This document shows, in pieces, positions 2,304-35,264 of a DNA stretch of 64,000 nucleotides; within the stretch, counting starts at the first letter, position 1, and each line of letters starts with the position of its first letter. Below the pieces are notes generated by a model. That model was not told where the DNA came from. It ran no database searches and worked only from the letters and a program-made list of their open reading frames with translations. The position numbers and the translations under genes are program-made. Source of the DNA: Actinomycetota bacterium (GTDB lineage Bacteria; Actinomycetota; Actinomycetes; Actinomycetales; Dermatophilaceae); NCBI GenBank assembly GCA_020161845.1, contig JAIUNK010000004.1, positions 62,001 to 126,000 on the forward strand. The letters are read 5' to 3'.

Positions 2304-3236
2304 ATGACCCAGCCCCCAGGACCGGCCCGCATCCCGCTCAGCCGCCTTCAGCTGCAACACCCGATGAGCCTGTCGGTGTTCGAGGACTACGAGCGGGCCC
2401 AGCGCGCCGTCGACTACCTCTCCGACCGGGAGTTCCCGGTCCAGAACGTCATGATCGTCGGCACCGATCTCAAACAGGTGGAGCGCGTCACGGGCCGGCT
2501 CACGTCCGCCCGGGTGTTGGCCTCCGGGGCCGCTTCGGGGGCCTGGATGGGAGCCTTCTTCGGGCTGCTGATGTGGGCTTTCCTGCCCGGGGCCGGGACG
2601 GCCCAGTTCCTCACCGCCGTGCTGGTCGGTGGAGTCTTCGGGATGATCTGGGCCTTGCTGCTCTACCGATTCACCGGCGGCGCTAGGGACTTCACCTCGG
2701 TGACGCAGGTGGTTGCGACCCGGTATGAGGTGCTCGTCGAGGCCAGCCACATCGGCGAGGCCCGCGGTCTGCTGGAGGATCAGCGACGGGGCGTTCCTGC
2801 GGATGCCGGACCTCGGCCGCAATCCGGTGCGGGCCAAGTCCCGCCCGCCGGTCCGGTGCCCCCGGGTGCCGCTGGGCCGGAGCCTCGTGCGCCGATGGCA
2901 CCCGGCGTACCGTCCGCAGGGGGGCCCGCAGCCCCGCCGCCGTACGGGCCGCCGCCCCAGGCCCCGACGGGCGGGCCGCATGACCCGCCGCCGTACCCCG
3001 CGCAGTACGCCCCGGCGAACCGCGCGCCCGAGCCGCCGAAGTACCGCACCTACGGCGAGGCCCTCGACGCCGAGCGGGCCGCTCGCCACGAGTCACCACC
3101 GGCGCCCGATGCTGCCGAGCGGCCGGGTGGGCAGCCGGGCGCGCAGCCGCCTGCGCAGCCGGGCGAGCGGCGGGACGACTCGGCCGCCGAGGACGCCCAT
3201 GACCCACCCGCCCCTCGGGATGGGCACAGCGCCTGA
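2304..3236 (+). CDS. General stress protein 17M-like membrane protein with Pro-rich tail
   Basis: A 310-residue protein. Residues about 20-160 match the actinobacterial general stress protein 17M (YflT-like) fold: a FEDYERAQRAVDYL start, a MIVGTDL strand, then two Gly/Ala-rich membrane helices with a short turn (about 70-115), and a closing domain. From about residue 165 the protein is a long disordered tail dominated by Pro, Gly, Ala and Gln. The tail suggests a cytoplasmic tether or interaction region. It stands alone after a long non-coding stretch. Family assignment is good; the biological role of this family in actinobacteria is poorly defined. Confidence 0.75.
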   Translation: MTQPPGPARIPLSRLQLQHPMSLSVFEDYERAQRAVDYLSDREFPVQNVMIVGTDLKQVERVTGRLTSARVLASGAASGAWMGAFFGLLMWAFLPGAGTAQFLTAVLVGGVFGMIWALLLYRFTGGARDFTSVTQVVATRYEVLVEASHIGEARGLLEDQRRGVPADAGPRPQSGAGQVPPAGPVPPGAAGPEPRAPMAPGVPSAGGPAAPPPYGPPPQAPTGGPHDPPPYPAQYAPANRAPEPPKYRTYGEALDAERAARHESPPAPDAAERPGGQPGAQPPAQPGERRDDSAAEDAHDPPAPRDGHSA

Positions 3237-3260
3237 GCGCCGCCGGGGCCGACGCGCCCC

Positions 3261-3302
3261 AGGACCGCAGCGTCTAGGACCGCAGCGTCTAGGACCGCAG
3301 CC
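3261..3302. repeat. Short tandem repeat, 15-bp unit x 2.7
   Basis: The unit AGGACCGCAGCGTCT occurs twice perfectly (3261-3275, 3276-3290) and then as ten more bases (3291-3300). It lies between the stress-protein gene and the sigma factor gene and could be a polymorphic slippage site. No hairpin or promoter role is apparent. Confidence 0.8.
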
Positions 3303-3374
3303 GCGGGGCAGGTTCCTGCCCGGGACGGCAACCTGGCGCCGGGGCATCCACCTCTGAAGAGGTGAGGAGGGGGT

Positions 3375-3935
3375 ATGGCGGCGGAGCCGGACGGCTTCTC
3401 GGAGTTCGTGACGACGCGCTCCGGCGCGCTGCTGCGCACCGCCTATCTCCTCACCGGTGAGCAGGCCCTGGCCCAGGATCTGCTGCAGGAGGCGTTGGCT
3501 CGGACGTGGCCGCGCTGGTCGGGGATCGGTGTGGGGGCACGGGAGGCGTACGTGCGCACGGTCATGATCCACCTACAGGGCGCCTGGTGGCGGCGCCGAT
3601 GGCGCGGCGAGGTGCCCACCGAGGTGCTGCCCGACCGGCGTCGAGGCTCGGACCCGCTGGCGGGTTCGGCGGGCGGTGTCGGGGCGGTGCCCGGCGGGGA
3701 GTCGGGCGTGCCCGACGGAGGTGTGGACCTCGAGTTGGCCGCGGCCCTGCGCACGTTGCCGGTGGGGCAGCGCCAGGCGGTCGTGCTGCGGTACGCCGAG
3801 GACCTCTCGATCGAGGACTGCGCGGCCGCGCTCGGGTGTTCGACCGGGACCGTGAAGAGTCAGGCCAGCAAGGGCCTCGCCGCGTTGCGACGGGTGTTGG
3901 GGCAGGCGGGTACGACGGCGGAGGTGAGCGGATGA
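3375..3935 (+). CDS. ECF RNA polymerase sigma factor, SigE family
   Basis: A 186-residue ECF sigma factor. Region 2 is seen near residues 10-45 (LRTAYLLTG followed by the DLLQEALARTWPRW helix) and region 4 near residues 118-170, with LPVGQRQAVVLRYAEDLS and a GCSTGTVKSQASKGLAALR recognition helix. A strong GGAGG-type ribosome binding site precedes the ATG. The stop overlaps the start of the next gene by 4 bp (ATGA), so the pair is translationally coupled. That neighbour has one membrane helix and probably acts as the regulator or sensor of this sigma factor. The signal sensed cannot be read from the sequence. Confidence 0.9.
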   Translation: MAAEPDGFSEFVTTRSGALLRTAYLLTGEQALAQDLLQEALARTWPRWSGIGVGAREAYVRTVMIHLQGAWWRRRWRGEVPTEVLPDRRRGSDPLAGSAGGVGAVPGGESGVPDGGVDLELAAALRTLPVGQRQAVVLRYAEDLSIEDCAAALGCSTGTVKSQASKGLAALRRVLGQAGTTAEVSG

Positions 3936-4867
3936 CCACGCGTGACGACGGCCCCGGTCTTGGACCCGGCGACGGTGCCGGCTCCGGCTCCGGCGACGCG
4001 GCGAACGACCCGCTCCTGCGTCGGCTCTCGGATGCGGTCGGGCCGGAGGCGAGCGGTCCGACGACGTACGCCGCGGTGGTCTCCCGGGTCGAGCGGCGGG
4101 CGGGCCGACGGCGGACCGCCCTGTCGGCCGCCGGCGGCATCGCGGCCGTGGCGCTGGTGGCCGGTGGCGGCTTCGTCCTGGGGCGCAGCGGCGGGGCGAG
4201 CACCACCGCCGGGTCCGCCGCCGGCGCCAGCAGCCCCGCAGGTCCGCAGCCCGTCGCCGGGTCGGGCCTGGCTGGGTCGGGCGCCGTCCAGGACGAGTCG
4301 GGAGCCTCCCGGGACGCGTCGGGCGCCGCGCAACCGGCGGGTGGCCCGGCCGGGCGCGCCGCCTGTCCCGACGTGCTCCCTGCGACCGTTCCGGTGGCGA
4401 TGTCGCCGGCTGCCGATCTCGCCGGCCAGCTGGTGGCGGCGCAACCGGATGCGCGGGCGGTGATCTGTGCCTATCCGCTGCCCGGAGGCGGAGCCGGCAC
4501 CGACTATTCGGCGGGCTCGCCCGGCGCAGGCGGTGCCACACCCGCGCCGCTTTCTCCTGGGGGCACGCTGATCGGGACGCGAGAGGTGCTCGCCGAGGCC
4601 TCCTGGCTGACCCGGGTTGCCGGGTTGCCCGCAACCAGCGATTCCGCCGCCTCGGGGCGAGCGACCTGCGATTCGGCGGTGCCGGCGGCGCAACGGGCGG
4701 TCTACCTCATCCAGGTGCAATACGCGGGCGGTGGAAGGTCGTGGCTTCGGGTCGTCGTGGGCGCCTGCGGATCGGCCGCCGACAACGGCATCGTGACCAC
4801 GCGACAGGCTGAGGGACTGGTGTCCGAGGTGCGCACGGCATACGAGCAGGGCACCCCCCTGCGGTAG
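3932..4867 (+). CDS. Single-pass membrane protein coupled to the ECF sigma factor (putative anti-sigma/sensor)
   Basis: A 311-residue protein whose ATG overlaps the stop of the sigma factor. The N-terminal 65 residues are cytoplasmic and polar, followed by one membrane helix (about 68-90), a low-complexity Ala/Gly/Ser linker (about 90-145) and an extracytoplasmic domain with several Cys. This layout is typical of partners of SigE-family ECF factors, but I see no clear zinc-binding anti-sigma HxxxCxxC motif. Anti-sigma or sensor function is therefore inferred from position and topology only. Confidence 0.6.
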   Translation: MTTRDDGPGLGPGDGAGSGSGDAANDPLLRRLSDAVGPEASGPTTYAAVVSRVERRAGRRRTALSAAGGIAAVALVAGGGFVLGRSGGASTTAGSAAGASSPAGPQPVAGSGLAGSGAVQDESGASRDASGAAQPAGGPAGRAACPDVLPATVPVAMSPAADLAGQLVAAQPDARAVICAYPLPGGGAGTDYSAGSPGAGGATPAPLSPGGTLIGTREVLAEASWLTRVAGLPATSDSAASGRATCDSAVPAAQRAVYLIQVQYAGGGRSWLRVVVGACGSAADNGIVTTRQAEGLVSEVRTAYEQGTPLR

Positions 4868-4876
4868 GCGACCCTG

Positions 4877-6400
4877 CTACCGGCCGCTTGCTGCAGCAAG
4901 CAGCCGCGCCATCCACGCCTCGACGTCGCTCGAGGTGCGGGGCAGGTGGTGCGACAGGATCTCGCAGCCGTCCTCGGTGACGAGGATGTCGTCCTCGATC
5001 CGTACGCCGATGCCGCGCAACTCCTCGGGGACGAGCAGGTCGTCGGACTTGAAGTAGAGCCCCGGCTCGACGGTGAGGATCATGCCGGGACGCAGGTCGG
5101 CCTCCAGGTAGTCCTCCCGCAAGGCCAGGGCGCAGTCGTGCACATCGAGGCCGAGGTGGTGGCTGGTGCCGTGCACCATCCAGCGCCGATGCCACTGACC
5201 CTTCTCCGGGTCGAGGGCATCGTCGACGGTGACGCCGTCGGGCAGCATGCCCCAGTCGTGCAGGGTCTGCGCGATGACGCGAATGGCGGCAGCGTGGACG
5301 TCCTTGAACTTCTGGCCGGGCCGCACCGCCGCGATGCCCGCGCATTGGGCGGCGTACACGGCGTCGTACACGCGCCGCTGCGCCGCGCTGAACCGGCCGT
5401 TCGCGGGGAGCGTGCGGGTGATGTCGGCCGTGAAGAGGGAGTCCATCTCGATGCCCGCGTCGAGCAGGACGAGGTCGCCGTCGTGAACATCGCCGGTGTT
5501 CCGCACCCAGTGCAGGGTGTTCGCGTGATCTGCTGCGGCGCAAATGGATTCGTACCCAACGCCGTTGCCCTCGTGGCGGGCGGTGCGGTTGAAGGTGCCC
5601 TCGATCCAGCGTTCCCCCCGACCGCGCCGGATGGCCTCCGGGAGCTCGGCGACCACGGCCTCGAAGGCGGTGGCGGTCGCCGCGCAGGCCTGGCGCATCT
5701 GGTCGGCCTCCCAGGCGTCCTTGGCCAGGCGCATCGTGGACAGGAAGCGGCTCAGTTCCAGGTCGGCCGCGGCAGCTTCGTCCTGCCGCTGTTCGGCGGT
5801 CAGGTCTTGGCGCTCGACGGTGGCACGGATGGCGTCGATCTGTGCCGCGACGTCGGTGTCCGCCTCCCGCAGCACCCTGAGCTGGACCGCGCCGACGTCC
5901 TTGCCGACCTCGTTCTCGAAGGCCGCCAGCTCTCGGGTCTGCAGGCCCAGTTCGGCCTGCGTCGAGGCGAGGGTGGGCCGGCGCCCGACCCAGAACTCGC
6001 CGTACCGGGAGTCGGCGAAGAACTCGTCGGTGTCCCGGCCCGAAGCGGGGCGGAAGTAGAGGATCGCGTCGTGGCCGTTGTCATCGTTGGGCTCCAGGAC
6101 CAACACGGCGTCCGGCTCGCGGTCCGCGCCCAGGCCGGTGAGGTGCGCGAACGCACTATGCGGGCGGAAGGCGTAGTCCGTGTCGTTGCTGCGCACCTTT
6201 AGGCCGCCGGCCGGGATGACGAGCCGCTCTCCGGGGAACTGTTCGGAGAGGCGGCGGCGGCGCTGCGCCGCGTAGTCGGCGACATCGGCCCGCTGCGGCA
6301 GGGGGTCCTCGTGGTCCGCCCAGCCCGTCGCGATGTACGCCCGGAACTCGTCGGTGACGGGGATCCCCCGATGCTCGGCCTTGGTCTGCTTCTCGCTCAC
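4877..6400 (-). CDS. pepP: Xaa-Pro aminopeptidase (M24B, aminopeptidase P)
   Basis: A 507-residue aminopeptidase P that removes N-terminal residues preceding proline. The N-terminal creatinase-like domain contains the substrate-shaping motif NDTDYAFRPHSAF. The C-terminal pita-bread domain carries the dinuclear-metal ligands: LDAGIEMDSLFTADITRT (two Asp), HGTSHHLGLDVHD (His), LTVEPGLYF (Glu) and GVRIEDDILVT (Glu). Length fits the long actinobacterial PepP form. It converges with the sigma-partner gene and diverges from the exporter gene. The start is a GTG with MSEKQTKAEHRG; no upstream alternative is needed. Confidence 0.93.
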   Translation of the reverse strand: MSEKQTKAEHRGIPVTDEFRAYIATGWADHEDPLPQRADVADYAAQRRRRLSEQFPGERLVIPAGGLKVRSNDTDYAFRPHSAFAHLTGLGADREPDAVLVLEPNDDNGHDAILYFRPASGRDTDEFFADSRYGEFWVGRRPTLASTQAELGLQTRELAAFENEVGKDVGAVQLRVLREADTDVAAQIDAIRATVERQDLTAEQRQDEAAAADLELSRFLSTMRLAKDAWEADQMRQACAATATAFEAVVAELPEAIRRGRGERWIEGTFNRTARHEGNGVGYESICAAADHANTLHWVRNTGDVHDGDLVLLDAGIEMDSLFTADITRTLPANGRFSAAQRRVYDAVYAAQCAGIAAVRPGQKFKDVHAAAIRVIAQTLHDWGMLPDGVTVDDALDPEKGQWHRRWMVHGTSHHLGLDVHDCALALREDYLEADLRPGMILTVEPGLYFKSDDLLVPEELRGIGVRIEDDILVTEDGCEILSHHLPRTSSDVEAWMARLLAAASGR

Positions 6401-31329: not shown

Positions 31330-32262
31330 ATGGGCGGGCGGGTAGCGGTGCGGGGCAAGGTTGCCGCGGTGACCGGGGCGGGGTCGGGGATCGGCCGCGC
31401 GTTGGTCGTCGAGCTGGCGCGCCGGGACGCCCGGGTGTCGGGATGTGACACCGATGCCGAGGGTCTCGCCGCGACGGCCGCGCTCGTGCCCGGCATGCAC
31501 ACCGCGGTCGTCGACGTGAGCCAGCGGGCGGCGATGTTCGCGTACGCCGAGGCGGTGCGCAGCCATTTCGGGGTGGTGCACCAGGTCTACAACAACGCCG
31601 GGATCGCGTTCAGCCAGCCCGTCGCCGAGTCCTCCTGGGAGGACTACGAGCGGGTGTTCCGGGTCAACCTGAACGGGGTGATCCACGGGACTCAGGCGTT
31701 CCTTCCGCACCTGGTGGCCTCCGGTGACGGCCACGTCGTGAACCTGTCCAGCCTGAACGGCGTGCTCGCCCAGGCGGGGATGTCGCACTATTGCACGGCC
31801 AAATTCGCGGTCCGCGGGTTCACCGAGACGCTGGCCCTGGAGCTGCGCCGCGACGGCCTGCCGGTGGCCGCCAGCGTCGTGCACCCGGGCGGGGTAGGCA
31901 CGGCCATCGCCGACAACGCGATGCGGCTCGCCCAAGCGGCCGGGCACCAGGTCGGGCCGACCCACGACCGCAACCGCCATCTCTACAACGAGAAGGTGCT
32001 GCGCATGGACCCCGCGAAGGCGGCCCGCATCATCGTCGACGGCGTCGAGGCCGGCCGCCCGCGGATCCTCGTCGGCGGGGACGCGATCCTCGCCGACGCG
32101 CTGGTCAGGCTCGCCCCCGCCCGGGTCGGCGACGTCACGCTGTGGCTGGAGCGCCGACTGACCCGATCGGTCGAGCCGACCGGGCGAGCAGCGCCGGTGG
32201 CGGACGTGACCGCGGGGAGCACGCAGGGCCCGATCCCCTCCCAGCAGGGGGATCGCCGGTGA
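31330..32262 (+). CDS. Short-chain dehydrogenase/reductase
   Basis: A 310-residue classical SDR. The cofactor motif is TGAGSGIG near residue 17, followed by the NNAGIAF strand-4 motif, the catalytic Ser in NLSSLNG, and YCTAK as the YxxxK pair near residue 154. An Asp in CDTDAEG after strand 2 suggests NAD preference. Substrate is unknown. The GTGA overlap with comB (4 bp) makes the two one transcription unit; the start lies about 85 bases after adnB. Confidence 0.9.
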   Translation: MGGRVAVRGKVAAVTGAGSGIGRALVVELARRDARVSGCDTDAEGLAATAALVPGMHTAVVDVSQRAAMFAYAEAVRSHFGVVHQVYNNAGIAFSQPVAESSWEDYERVFRVNLNGVIHGTQAFLPHLVASGDGHVVNLSSLNGVLAQAGMSHYCTAKFAVRGFTETLALELRRDGLPVAASVVHPGGVGTAIADNAMRLAQAAGHQVGPTHDRNRHLYNEKVLRMDPAKAARIIVDGVEAGRPRILVGGDAILADALVRLAPARVGDVTLWLERRLTRSVEPTGRAAPVADVTAGSTQGPIPSQQGDRR

Positions 32263-33053
32263 CGCTGGTCGTCACCCATCTGGACGAGCTCGGGGCCGTC
32301 GGGGTCGCCGACCCGGCCGCCAGGGGCGTCGATAACCGCGCTCGACCCGACCTCAGTGGATATGCCGCGGCCGTCGTCATCGACGTCGTCCGCGCGTTCA
32401 CGGTGGCGCCCTGGTGCCTGGCCCGCGGCGCGGAGCGAGTTCTGCTGGCCCGGGACGCCGACGCGGCTCTGGCCGCCCGGGTCGAGCGATTCCCGCAGGC
32501 GCTGCTCCTGCGGGACGGACGCCCCGACCCACGGTTCGACCTGCCGAACGCCCCAGGCCGGATCGCAGGGGAGGACCTCACCGGCCGTACCATCGTCCAG
32601 ACCACCGGCAACGGCACACGCGGCGCCCACGCGGTCGCCGGGGTCCCCATCATTTTGTGCGCTTCGTTCGTCACGGCCCGCGCGACGGCAGCGGTGCTGG
32701 CCGGGACCGCCGGGTCCGTCCTGTGCGTTCCCACCGAGGGTGATGAGGACGTCGCCCTCGCCGACTACCTCGCGGCACTCCTTGATGGCGGTGGCACCGC
32801 CGACGCCGAGCCTTATCTCCGCCGGGTCCGGGACTCCCCTGCGGGGCAGGAGTGCCTGACACGCGGCGCCGACCCCGCCTATCCCGGGGTACACCCAGAC
32901 GACCTGGACCGTTGTCTTCAGGTCGACGCCTTCGACCATGCCCTGCAGGCCATCCCCGATGGGCAACTGCTCGCCCTCGTGCCGGTTGGGCCCTCGGCGT
33001 CCCTCTCGTCTCGAGATCCAAGGCGCGGCACGACACGGGCCGATGGGACCTGA
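32259..33053 (+). CDS. comB: ComB-like 2-phosphosulfolactate phosphatase with a foreign C-terminal tail
   Basis: A ComB-family phosphatase (2-phosphosulfolactate to sulfolactate, coenzyme M route in archaea; bacterial role less clear). The IDVVRAFTVA motif near residue 35, QTTGNGTRGA and CVPTEGDEDVALADYLAALL are family features. The GTG start lies inside the stop of the SDR gene. The normal end of the protein lies near residue 240 (GQLLALV); the frame then runs 24 codons into unrelated DNA (from 32981). A second copy of the 3' end, with a natural-looking TGA, lies at 33809-33918 beyond a toxin-antitoxin pair. The tail is therefore probably a result of that insertion. Confidence 0.85.
   Translation: MTLVVTHLDELGAVGVADPAARGVDNRARPDLSGYAAAVVIDVVRAFTVAPWCLARGAERVLLARDADAALAARVERFPQALLLRDGRPDPRFDLPNAPGRIAGEDLTGRTIVQTTGNGTRGAHAVAGVPIILCASFVTARATAAVLAGTAGSVLCVPTEGDEDVALADYLAALLDGGGTADAEPYLRRVRDSPAGQECLTRGADPAYPGVHPDDLDRCLQVDAFDHALQAIPDGQLLALVPVGPSASLSSRDPRRGTTRADGT
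32881..32980. repeat. 100-bp direct repeat, copy A (within comB 3' end)
   Basis: This stretch matches 33809-33908 base for base without gaps except for nine substitutions (91% identity). Eight of the nine are synonymous in the comB frame and one changes Asp to Ala. Sequences before and after the repeat do not match. The two copies enclose an AbrB/RelE-type toxin-antitoxin pair. Confidence 0.92.
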
Positions 33054-33144
33054 GAAACAGGAGCACCCCTGAGCGAGGTGCCAGGCGGCGTATTGCGTCT
33101 TTGCCGTATTGCGGCTTTGCTGCTGCCCTTCTAGGCTCTTGGGC

Positions 33145-33453
33145 ATGGGTTTTCATGGCTATGTCGGTGTTCAGGGACGCGGCGTGGTGGCATTGCCTGC
33201 CGAGGTGCGTCGTCGTCTGCACCTGGATCAACCCGGGGCTCAGGTCGAGATCACCGAGCGGGAGGACGGCGTCCTGGAACTGCGGCCATCGTTGCCGATC
33301 CCCGCTGATCAGCACTGGTTCTGGACTCAACGTTGGCAGGACCGCGAGCGCGAGGTTGACCAGCACGTCGCCGCGGGCGACTTGACCGTCCACTGCGACG
33401 GCTCGGCTCTTCTGGAGCACCTGGAGGCGCTGGAGGACGCCGAGCCCTCGTGA
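33145..33453 (+). CDS. AbrB/SpoVT-type antitoxin
   Basis: A 102-residue antitoxin. The N-terminal AbrB swapped-hairpin DNA-binding domain (about residues 1-48) reads VGVQGRGVVALPAEVRRRLHL, then PGAQVEITEREDGVLELRP. The C-terminal part has WFWTQRWQDREREVDQ, the usual toxin-binding segment in this antitoxin group. It overlaps the toxin start by 4 bp (GTGA). Two direct copies of CGTATTGCG (33089 and 33105) lie just upstream and could be an autoregulatory operator. Confidence 0.85.
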   Translation: MGFHGYVGVQGRGVVALPAEVRRRLHLDQPGAQVEITEREDGVLELRPSLPIPADQHWFWTQRWQDREREVDQHVAAGDLTVHCDGSALLEHLEALEDAEPS

Positions 33454-33761
33454 AATTCGAGACCACCCCAGCCTTCGATGCCGACTATCGCCGCCTCAGA
33501 CCGGAGCATCGGGCAGAGTTTCGGCGGGTGCTGCGACAAAAGTTCATTCCTGCCTGCGACGAGTTGGCCAGAGACCCTGCCGCATCGTGGCCGAAATCGT
33601 TGCGCGTCAAGGCGGTACGCGGTGCGCTCGGCGTGTTGGAAATGACGTGGTCGTTCGCGAGCCCCGACGGGCGAGCCACCTTCGAACTCGTCACGGTCGA
33701 GGGAGATCTGCGTTGTCGCTGGCGCCGCATCGGCGACCATGGCGTCTTCCGGCAGCCATGA
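33450..33761 (+). CDS. RelE/ParE-like toxin
   Basis: A 103-residue basic protein of the RelE/ParE fold: MKFETTPAFDADYRRLRPEHR at the N-terminus, the central WPKSLRVKAVRGALGVLEMTW strand pair and a C-terminal LRCRWRRIGDHGVF. Such toxins cleave mRNA on the ribosome or poison gyrase; which applies cannot be told here. It starts on a GTG inside the antitoxin stop. The pair sits between the two copies of the comB 3' end, so it likely arrived as a cassette. Confidence 0.82.
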   Translation: MKFETTPAFDADYRRLRPEHRAEFRRVLRQKFIPACDELARDPAASWPKSLRVKAVRGALGVLEMTWSFASPDGRATFELVTVEGDLRCRWRRIGDHGVFRQP

Positions 33762-33807
33762 CGCCGATCAGGATCACGTAGTCCCTACCCGGCCCCCCGT
33801 CGGCATC

Positions 33808-33918
33808 AATCCCGGGGTGCATCCGGACGACCTGGCCCGCTGTCTCCAGGTCGATGCCTTCGACCATGCCCTGCAGGCCATCCCCGACGGGCAACTCCTC
33901 GCCCTCGTCACACGCTGA
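33808..33918 (+). pseudogene. comB: Detached 3' end of a comB gene
   Basis: A reading frame without a start codon that encodes the ComB C-terminus NPGVHPDDLARCLQVDAF and onward, ending GQLLALVTR and TGA at 33916-33918. It is 91% identical over 100 bases to the comB end at 32881-32980, with mostly synonymous changes. It looks like the original or a donor-derived comB terminus separated from its gene by the toxin-antitoxin cassette. Confidence 0.85.
33809..33908. repeat. 100-bp direct repeat, copy B
   Basis: The partner of 32881-32980, offset by exactly 928 bases, 91% identical. It closes the toxin-antitoxin cassette and contains the detached comB end. Confidence 0.92.
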
Positions 33919-34022: not shown

Positions 34023-35264
34023 GTGGGCGAAGGTCCCGGGGGCAGCCGCGCCGATCCGTCGTTTCGCCGGTTGTGGGCCGCATTCGTGCTGGCCCAGGCG
34101 GGTTCGGCGGTCGGCGCGGTGGCCGTCCCGCTCATCGCGATCCGCGAACTCGGCTGGGACCAGGCCACGATCGCCCTGCTCGCCACCGTTGCGGCGGTCG
34201 TGCAGGTGATGGCCGCTGTCCCGGCCGGCCATCTCGCGGAGTTCCGACGCAAGCGCCCCGTGATGGTCGCTGCGGATCTGATCCGAGCAGTCAGCACATT
34301 AGCCGTGGCCGGTCTGTTCCTGCTCGGCGCTCTGCACGTCACCGCGCTCATGGGGGTGCTCGCCCTGAACGCGGCCATGCAGGTGCTCTTCGCCAGCGCC
34401 TCGGCCGCCCACACCAAGGATCTGCTCCGGCCGGAGCATCGCGCCGACGGGCTGGGCAAGCTGCAGACCGCCGCCTGGGCGTCCATGATCACCGGGCCGG
34501 TCGTGGCCGGAGCGATCGCGGCCGTCAGCTCACCCGTGGTGCTGCTGTTCGTCAATGCAGCCGCCTTTCTGGGCAGCGCGGCGCTCATCCGCACCATCCC
34601 CACCCCGGAGAACCCGCCGCCCGCTAGGACCGGTGAGGCGAGCGGGCTCGCGGGTGCCGCCGCGGGACTGCGCCATCTCCTGACCGACCCGGTGTTGCGC
34701 AGACTCTTCATCAGCTGGGTCCTCTTCGCCGGCGCCGTGGCCGCGCTCACGCCCGTCACCGCGGTTTTTGCCCTGCAGGACCTGCGCCTCACCGAGGGCG
34801 AGTACGGGCTGCTGATGGGCCTGCCCTCGCTCGGCGGGCTGGCCGGGTCCTGGTTGACCGGGGCTGTGACCCGGCGCTGGGGTCTCGGTCCCACCCTGTG
34901 GTGGGGGAGCCTGCTCCGCATACCGTGGTATCTGCTCTACCCGCTCACCCCGCGGGGCGGGGGCATGGCGGGCTTGGTGGTGCTGATGGTGGCCTTCACC
35001 GGGGTGCTCTTTTTCTCCGCAATGACGAACTCGGCCATCAGCGCGCTCCGGATGGACCACACCCCCGATCGGCTCATGGCGCGGGCGAGCGCCGCCTGGA
35101 CGATGGCCACCATGGCGGCCGGCCCGGTGCTGATCCCCGGGCTCGGCCTGGTCATGCAGCTGGCCGGGGCGCGGACGGCGCTGTGGGCGATAGCCGGGAT
35201 CGTCGCCACCTCATCGCTGGTCCTCCCGGCTCACCGGCTGCGGTCGGGCCGCCAGTGGCGATGA
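34023..35264 (+). CDS. Major facilitator superfamily transporter
   Basis: A 413-residue permease with about twelve hydrophobic helices in two halves. FRRLWAAFVLAQAGSAVGAVAVPLIA is the first helix region and FRRKRPVMVAADLIRA is the MFS cytoplasmic loop 2-3 motif. It belongs to the MFS_3 / macrolide-efflux-like group, whose substrates are rarely known. The start is a GTG at 34023. It is close to the WhiB7 region, but nothing in the sequence proves drug efflux. Confidence 0.85.
   Translation: MGEGPGGSRADPSFRRLWAAFVLAQAGSAVGAVAVPLIAIRELGWDQATIALLATVAAVVQVMAAVPAGHLAEFRRKRPVMVAADLIRAVSTLAVAGLFLLGALHVTALMGVLALNAAMQVLFASASAAHTKDLLRPEHRADGLGKLQTAAWASMITGPVVAGAIAAVSSPVVLLFVNAAAFLGSAALIRTIPTPENPPPARTGEASGLAGAAAGLRHLLTDPVLRRLFISWVLFAGAVAALTPVTAVFALQDLRLTEGEYGLLMGLPSLGGLAGSWLTGAVTRRWGLGPTLWWGSLLRIPWYLLYPLTPRGGGMAGLVVLMVAFTGVLFFSAMTNSAISALRMDHTPDRLMARASAAWTMATMAAGPVLIPGLGLVMQLAGARTALWAIAGIVATSSLVLPAHRLRSGRQWR

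Follow-up and report, generated by a model that had tools for sequence, protein, structure and literature searches.

How does a toxin-antitoxin pair come to lie between two unlike copies of the 3' end of one metabolic gene? The question is raised by a comB-like gene of the 2-phosphosulfolactate phosphatase family in the stretch of 64,000 nucleotides analyzed here, hereafter the window (Table 1). A repeat search of the window returned two direct repeats of 100 nt each, 91% identical and ungapped, with the two full genes of the pair between them, and when the window was compared with itself at E<=1e-6, no other direct repeats lay within 6 kb of each other. Outside the two copies identity falls to 23 of 48 positions upstream and 14 of 48 downstream. 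Read in the comB frame, the copies differ at nine positions, eight of them synonymous third-position changes and one non-synonymous (D to A). An earlier note on this DNA had reported these repeats, and their coordinates, identity and synonymous excess proved exact.

The comB gene and its two ends

The two ends of comB are finished differently. The present frame extends 24 codons beyond copy 1 into a run-on whose GC content by codon position (0.64/0.80/0.68) is unlike that of local coding DNA. Copy 2 ends with LALVTR followed by a stop, resembling the stop of comB relatives; the nearest relatives found, from Pseudactinotalea (protein 68% and 63% identical), end with LLAVATR and LLAVHAR. The comB running 24 codons past copy 1 and the natural-looking stop after copy 2, as described earlier, are both confirmed, and homologues end at the position of the latter. 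The 59-codon open frame that holds copy 2 is probably a relic. It had also been suggested that the gene end was restored. This does not hold, because the comB body is joined to copy 1 without the natural last codons and stop, and a complete gene end was therefore not regained. Copies 1 and 2 are equally far from the Pseudactinotalea genes (69/96 each to L003, 57/75 each to L004), so these relatives cannot polarize the changes between them, and the tree of both copies suggested in the earlier note would not separate the alternatives.

Table 1. Features of the comB locus, in window coordinates.
Feature	Position	Strand	Basis or remark
Short-chain dehydrogenase (SDR), upstream neighbor	31330..32262	+	PF00106 E 1.6e-47; unmatched in the congener stretches next to UvrD (L056-L058)
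comB-like gene, 2-phosphosulfolactate phosphatase family	32259..33053	+	PF04029 E 1.5e-24; homologues end at the copy 2 stop position
Copy 1 of comB 3' end	32881..32980	+	In frame with comB body; repeat search, codon analysis
Unrelated run-on closing the present comB frame	32981..33053	+	GC by codon position resembles non-coding DNA
Tandem 16-bp direct repeat, one mismatch	33089..33120	+	Just upstream of antitoxin; read from sequence
AbrB/MazE-type antitoxin	33145..33453	+	PF04014 24.4 bits (cut-off 24.7), TIGR01439 28.1 bits (cut-off 28.3)
Putative toxin, predicted RelE-superfamily fold	33450..33761	+	Overlaps antitoxin stop
59-codon open frame holding copy 2 and natural-looking stop	33739..33918	+	ORF list; stop position as in relatives
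Copy 2 of comB 3' end	33809..33908	+	Detached from any comB body; repeat search
MFS transporter, downstream neighbor	34023..35264	+	PF07690 E 3.9e-34; no match in L056-L058

comB is patchily distributed. It was found in 6 of 186 genomes of the family, 4 of 396 of the order and 25 of 394 of the class, each count including the genome studied here. Comparison with viral contigs confirmed no comB relative, and plasmid relatives were at most 52% identical. Two members of the family (G153 and G164) hold nothing but broken comB pieces, and a third (G094) has a lone comB end. The latter (L119, 5956-6099) covers about 35-47 codons without a comB body and sits between frames that, by sequence reading, are macro-domain-like and peptidase-like.

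Selection and codon usage in the two ends

The differences between copies 1 and 2 carry a clear signature of selection. Over 24.2 synonymous and 71.8 non-synonymous sites, dS is 0.44 and dN 0.014, and the chance that a random mutation in the 100-bp end is synonymous is 0.23-0.31. The probability of at most one non-synonymous change is 5e-5 to 5e-4 (2.5e-4) if an unselected copy took all nine changes, 0.0025 for a 7:2 split, which is our own expectation for one drifting and one selected copy, and 0.023 for a 5:4 split; the low count becomes likely (P 0.48 or more) only with at least seven changes on the selected copy. Because so few non-synonymous changes are improbable under drift (P ~0.0003-0.02), both ends probably diverged for the most part as selected, functional comB. 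The earlier note had reached the same view in proposing two lineages. Such a history favors two lineages or two paralogues over a local duplication followed by drift.

The latter scenario has published counterparts. Restriction-modification genes have been found inserted with target duplications of ~100 bp (Nobusato, 2000 and Furuta, 2010, as cited in passages of PMC3874152), and the comB locus resembles these insertions in having a two-gene addiction-type unit with no recombinase of its own between direct repeats of ~100 bp. A native insertion of the pair with a long target duplication and later drift would leave repeats of this size, and the published duplications are the closest match in size that was found in print. 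However, the repeats of restriction-modification insertions are described as one duplicated target (PMC3874152), whereas the comB ends, at dS 0.44, bear the signature of purifying selection. Drift predicts mostly non-synonymous changes, and that eight of the nine are synonymous is statistical evidence against two copies of one target, unless it was the selected copy that received most of the changes. We hold this origin to be very unlikely.

Two former tandem comB paralogues, with the pair replacing the end of the first selected copy and the body of the second, would account for selection on both ends without any foreign comB. But no tandem comB pair was present in the comB match lists of family, order and class genomes, the second comB of G724 lies on a separate contig, and the two comB pieces in G153, as in G164, overlap and are parts of one broken gene. 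A tandem origin is thus improbable.

It was proposed in the earlier note that the second end had come with the cassette. Codon usage points, weakly, the other way. With the UvrD genes of the window as reference, copy 1 has a codon adaptation of 0.52, close to the antitoxin (0.51) and toxin (0.47), and copy 2 one of 0.66, close to the comB body (0.63). When the SDR and MFS genes were added to the reference, copy 1 remained at 0.52 and copy 2 rose to 0.69, while the first four 96-bp blocks of comB scored 0.66-0.72 and the last two 0.55-0.56. Copy 2 therefore fits the 5' part of the comB body, and copy 1 is nearer to the pair and to the low 3' third of comB. The signal is weak, as copy 1 falls within the range of the comB body, where 7 of 177 windows score equally low; 140 of the 177 score no higher than copy 2. 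The fall in adaptation begins at ~32643 (permutation p 0.036, for a split point picked post hoc, after seeing the data); the corresponding split in the control Pseudactinotalea genes gives p 0.45 (L003) and 0.16 (L004), with no clear drop. The codon evidence spans 32 codons, and five of the eight synonymous differences favor copy 2, three copy 1. Since copy 1 resembles the toxin-antitoxin genes and copy 2 the 5' comB body, we lean weakly toward a copy 1 that arrived with the pair and a resident copy 2.

The accessory block and the origin of the locus

The SDR-comB-toxin-antitoxin-MFS block is missing between the same flanking genes in all three congeners (G001-G003). These genomes retain the UvrD and phosphotransferase neighbors, whose matched parts lie ~0.4-0.8 kb apart, and the intervening stretches gave no match to SDR, comB, toxin, antitoxin or MFS. 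Because of this absence and of the patchy distribution of comB, the whole block is accessory, by gain here or loss in the congeners. As the entire surrounding block is missing there, the comB event cannot be viewed against an empty site, and the genomes searched yielded neither a donor nor a recipient nor an empty comB site. A Pfam scan of 11 proteins encoded between 27706 and 40156 revealed no integrase or recombinase.

An assembly artefact or a mixture of strains might be suspected, as the assembly consists of 82 contigs, is larger than those of the three congeners and has a contamination estimate of 4.4%. However, the window sits on a 213-kb contig that matches the congeners on both sides of the block, and the repeats differ at nine sites with two full genes between them, so that we give this explanation hardly any weight.

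Relatives of the pair reside on mobile DNA. On a Mycolicibacterium plasmid, a toxin 72% identical to that of the window is paired with an AbrB-type partner and adjoins a site-specific integrase gene, and two further relatives are located on phage contigs; a search of 50,697 phage records did not return the toxin itself.

The explanation to which we give about an even chance of being right is that the locus is a scar, left when foreign DNA bearing comB and the toxin-antitoxin pair entered by ordinary recombination through one homologous and one illegitimate junction. It is favored because of the synonymous pattern, the codon usage, the relatives of the pair on mobile DNA, the absence of the block in congeners and a published precedent. 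We infer the donor, the side that was homologous and the role of copy 2 as resident end; the two diverged ends themselves are directly observed, as are their selection signature, the intact frames of the pair and the lack of the block in congeners. The donor DNA, from another comB-bearing lineage, would have carried the toxin-antitoxin pair behind a comB 3' part and recombined into the resident comB. Its left join would have formed through homologous comB sequence, and its right join would have been illegitimate, attaching the foreign end at a point ~100 bp short of the stop of the resident comB. The last 100 bp of the resident gene would then have been orphaned as copy 2, while the surviving comB would end in the run-on, which may be the donor's own odd ending or the product of a second event. 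Such a route would not require an integrase.

The precedent is the combination of one homologous and one illegitimate junction with orphan 3' ends that was proposed for effector and Rhs loci (passages of PMC5361080). As in the homology-facilitated illegitimate recombination of T6SS effector-immunity and Rhs loci, the old 3' end would be orphaned downstream. The comB locus differs from those loci (PMC5361080) in its toxin-antitoxin cargo, in the metabolic nature of the gene and in being a single case. Text searches of the literature returned no report of a toxin-antitoxin pair between diverged comB ends. If read as such a scar, the locus records how a free toxin-antitoxin pair that brings no recombinase may enter a chromosome, and the selection signature is what separates arrival with foreign homologous DNA from a local target duplication.

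The toxin-antitoxin pair and other toxin loci

Both reading frames of the pair are intact. The antitoxin gene, with a DNA-binding domain whose AbrB/MazE match falls just below cut-off, lies directly upstream of the toxin gene, and the frames overlap at 33450-33453. No Pfam model matched the toxin at E<=1. With a predicted RelE-like fold and an overlapping upstream antitoxin, the pair has the features tested for a type II toxin-antitoxin system, and what had been described as an AbrB/RelE-like pair is accordingly an AbrB/MazE-type antitoxin with a toxin of predicted RelE fold. The tandem 16-bp repeat in front of the antitoxin is a possible operator; a sigma-70 promoter scan gave nothing. A terminator-like hairpin is present on the minus strand at 33062-33082.

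YhaV is a RelE-superfamily toxin and the partner of the AbrB-type antitoxin PrlF. The pair shares this combination of domain types, and antitoxin relatives from phage give PF15937 (PrlF) matches of 22.2 and 21.4 bits, below the cut-off of 32, but the lack of a Pfam match for the toxin sets the two apart. In the phage contigs L158 (4121-4923) and L159 (3543-4370), the antitoxin and toxin frames are divergent and form no operon.

Some integrative elements enter gene 3' ends and restore them. The comB locus is like these in that a duplicated gene 3' end flanks the cargo, and unlike them in that no integrase was found there and the end was not restored. A toxin-antitoxin unit with its own comB end that entered the comB 3' end, by site-specific or single-crossover recombination and possibly as a 928-bp circle recombined in trans, would explain the 928-bp period of the repeats and their ungapped alignment at a gene end. 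Such a cassette might recur elsewhere. Repeats between the two flanks were scored first in 18 toxin loci, the window among them, and then in 20 more, 37 besides the window. The first set came from 22 oriented loci, of which L048, L054, L079 and L081 were left out because their genes were truncated or flanks were missing; L047 has only 293 bp of upstream flank. In the second set, 13 of 20 antitoxins had no similarity match and their start was placed 330 bp upstream, two phage loci had the antitoxin on the other strand, and L174 and L176 overlap.

None of the 37 loci showed a duplicated gene end, and no credible comB was found near the 22 other toxin loci searched (best E 0.082). Recurrence of the same pair at comB in other genomes, for which the earlier note had proposed a test, finds no support in these loci. 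When the flanks of the 18 loci were compared by tblastx, only the window (79.9 bits) exceeded the best cross-locus value (62.0). Flank scores of at least 44 were otherwise reached by L049, L053, L047, L174-L176 and L163, and most of these were rejected as parallels. The 18-base core of the 42-bp repeats of L049 and L053 is present 24 and 29 times in their genomes (<=1 mismatch; reversed control 0), the 37-bp repeat of L047 occurs at 21 genome places (<=2 mismatches; control 0), and the repeats of L174 and L175 are copies of the toxin locus itself, L176 overlapping L174. L076 scored 41, with repeats >1.2 kb from the pair. At L053 (6116-6876), a second toxin-antitoxin-like pair, by eye presumably ribbon-helix-helix and BrnT-like, adjoins the AbrB/RelE pair and is encoded on the other strand. 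In G020, a repeat spaced at 28 bp is present both in short tandem arrays and in scattered copies (pattern matches in C49, C64 and C121).

The L163 locus (G562) is suggestive as a possible parallel case. Its toxin is 48% identical to that of the window, its antitoxin gives a weak Phd/YefM match (E 0.028), and the pair is flanked by 38-bp, 84%-identical repeats upstream of a gene named pta from sequence reading; a relative 97% identical over pta (G697) lacks the pair. However, a further 219 bp between the left flank and the left site copy are unplaced and fit a simple cassette poorly, and three other congeners have a different reading frame at the site. The L163 score of 46 was unreached in 500 shuffles, a lenient test because the scores of L047 and L076 were unreached as well. 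Although L163 favors an integrative cassette, the missing gene-end recurrence, the lack of comB elsewhere, the repeats at two other sites being genome-wide and the extra bases of L163 all weigh against it, in addition to the unrestored end and the lack of an integrase, and we consider it unlikely. A broader conjecture, that an actinobacterial RelE-type toxin-antitoxin family moves without an integrase, carrying a diverged copy of the target flank and settling recurrently between unlike target copies (the comB end here, upstream of pta in L163), appears rather remote. Should the pta case be confirmed, movement of such pairs by flanking homology becomes testable; otherwise the comB locus is one instance of ordinary recombination.

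The L163 antitoxin (1217-1504) and that of the window accompany toxins of one family and differ in DNA-binding type. The window antitoxin and two phage relatives are of the AbrB/MazE type, that of L163 is weakly Phd/YefM-like, and their C-terminal parts are similar. Different DNA-binding types that share C-terminal similarity suggest domain swapping among these antitoxins. A close antitoxin relative (83% over 86 residues) is found in L160 (G128; 3067-4990 in toxin-antitoxin orientation), where the toxin matches only in its first 21 residues. This relative begins ~0.2 kb after a CRISPR-like array with at least 22 exact repeat cores at ~72-nt spacing, as judged by eye and by pattern count.
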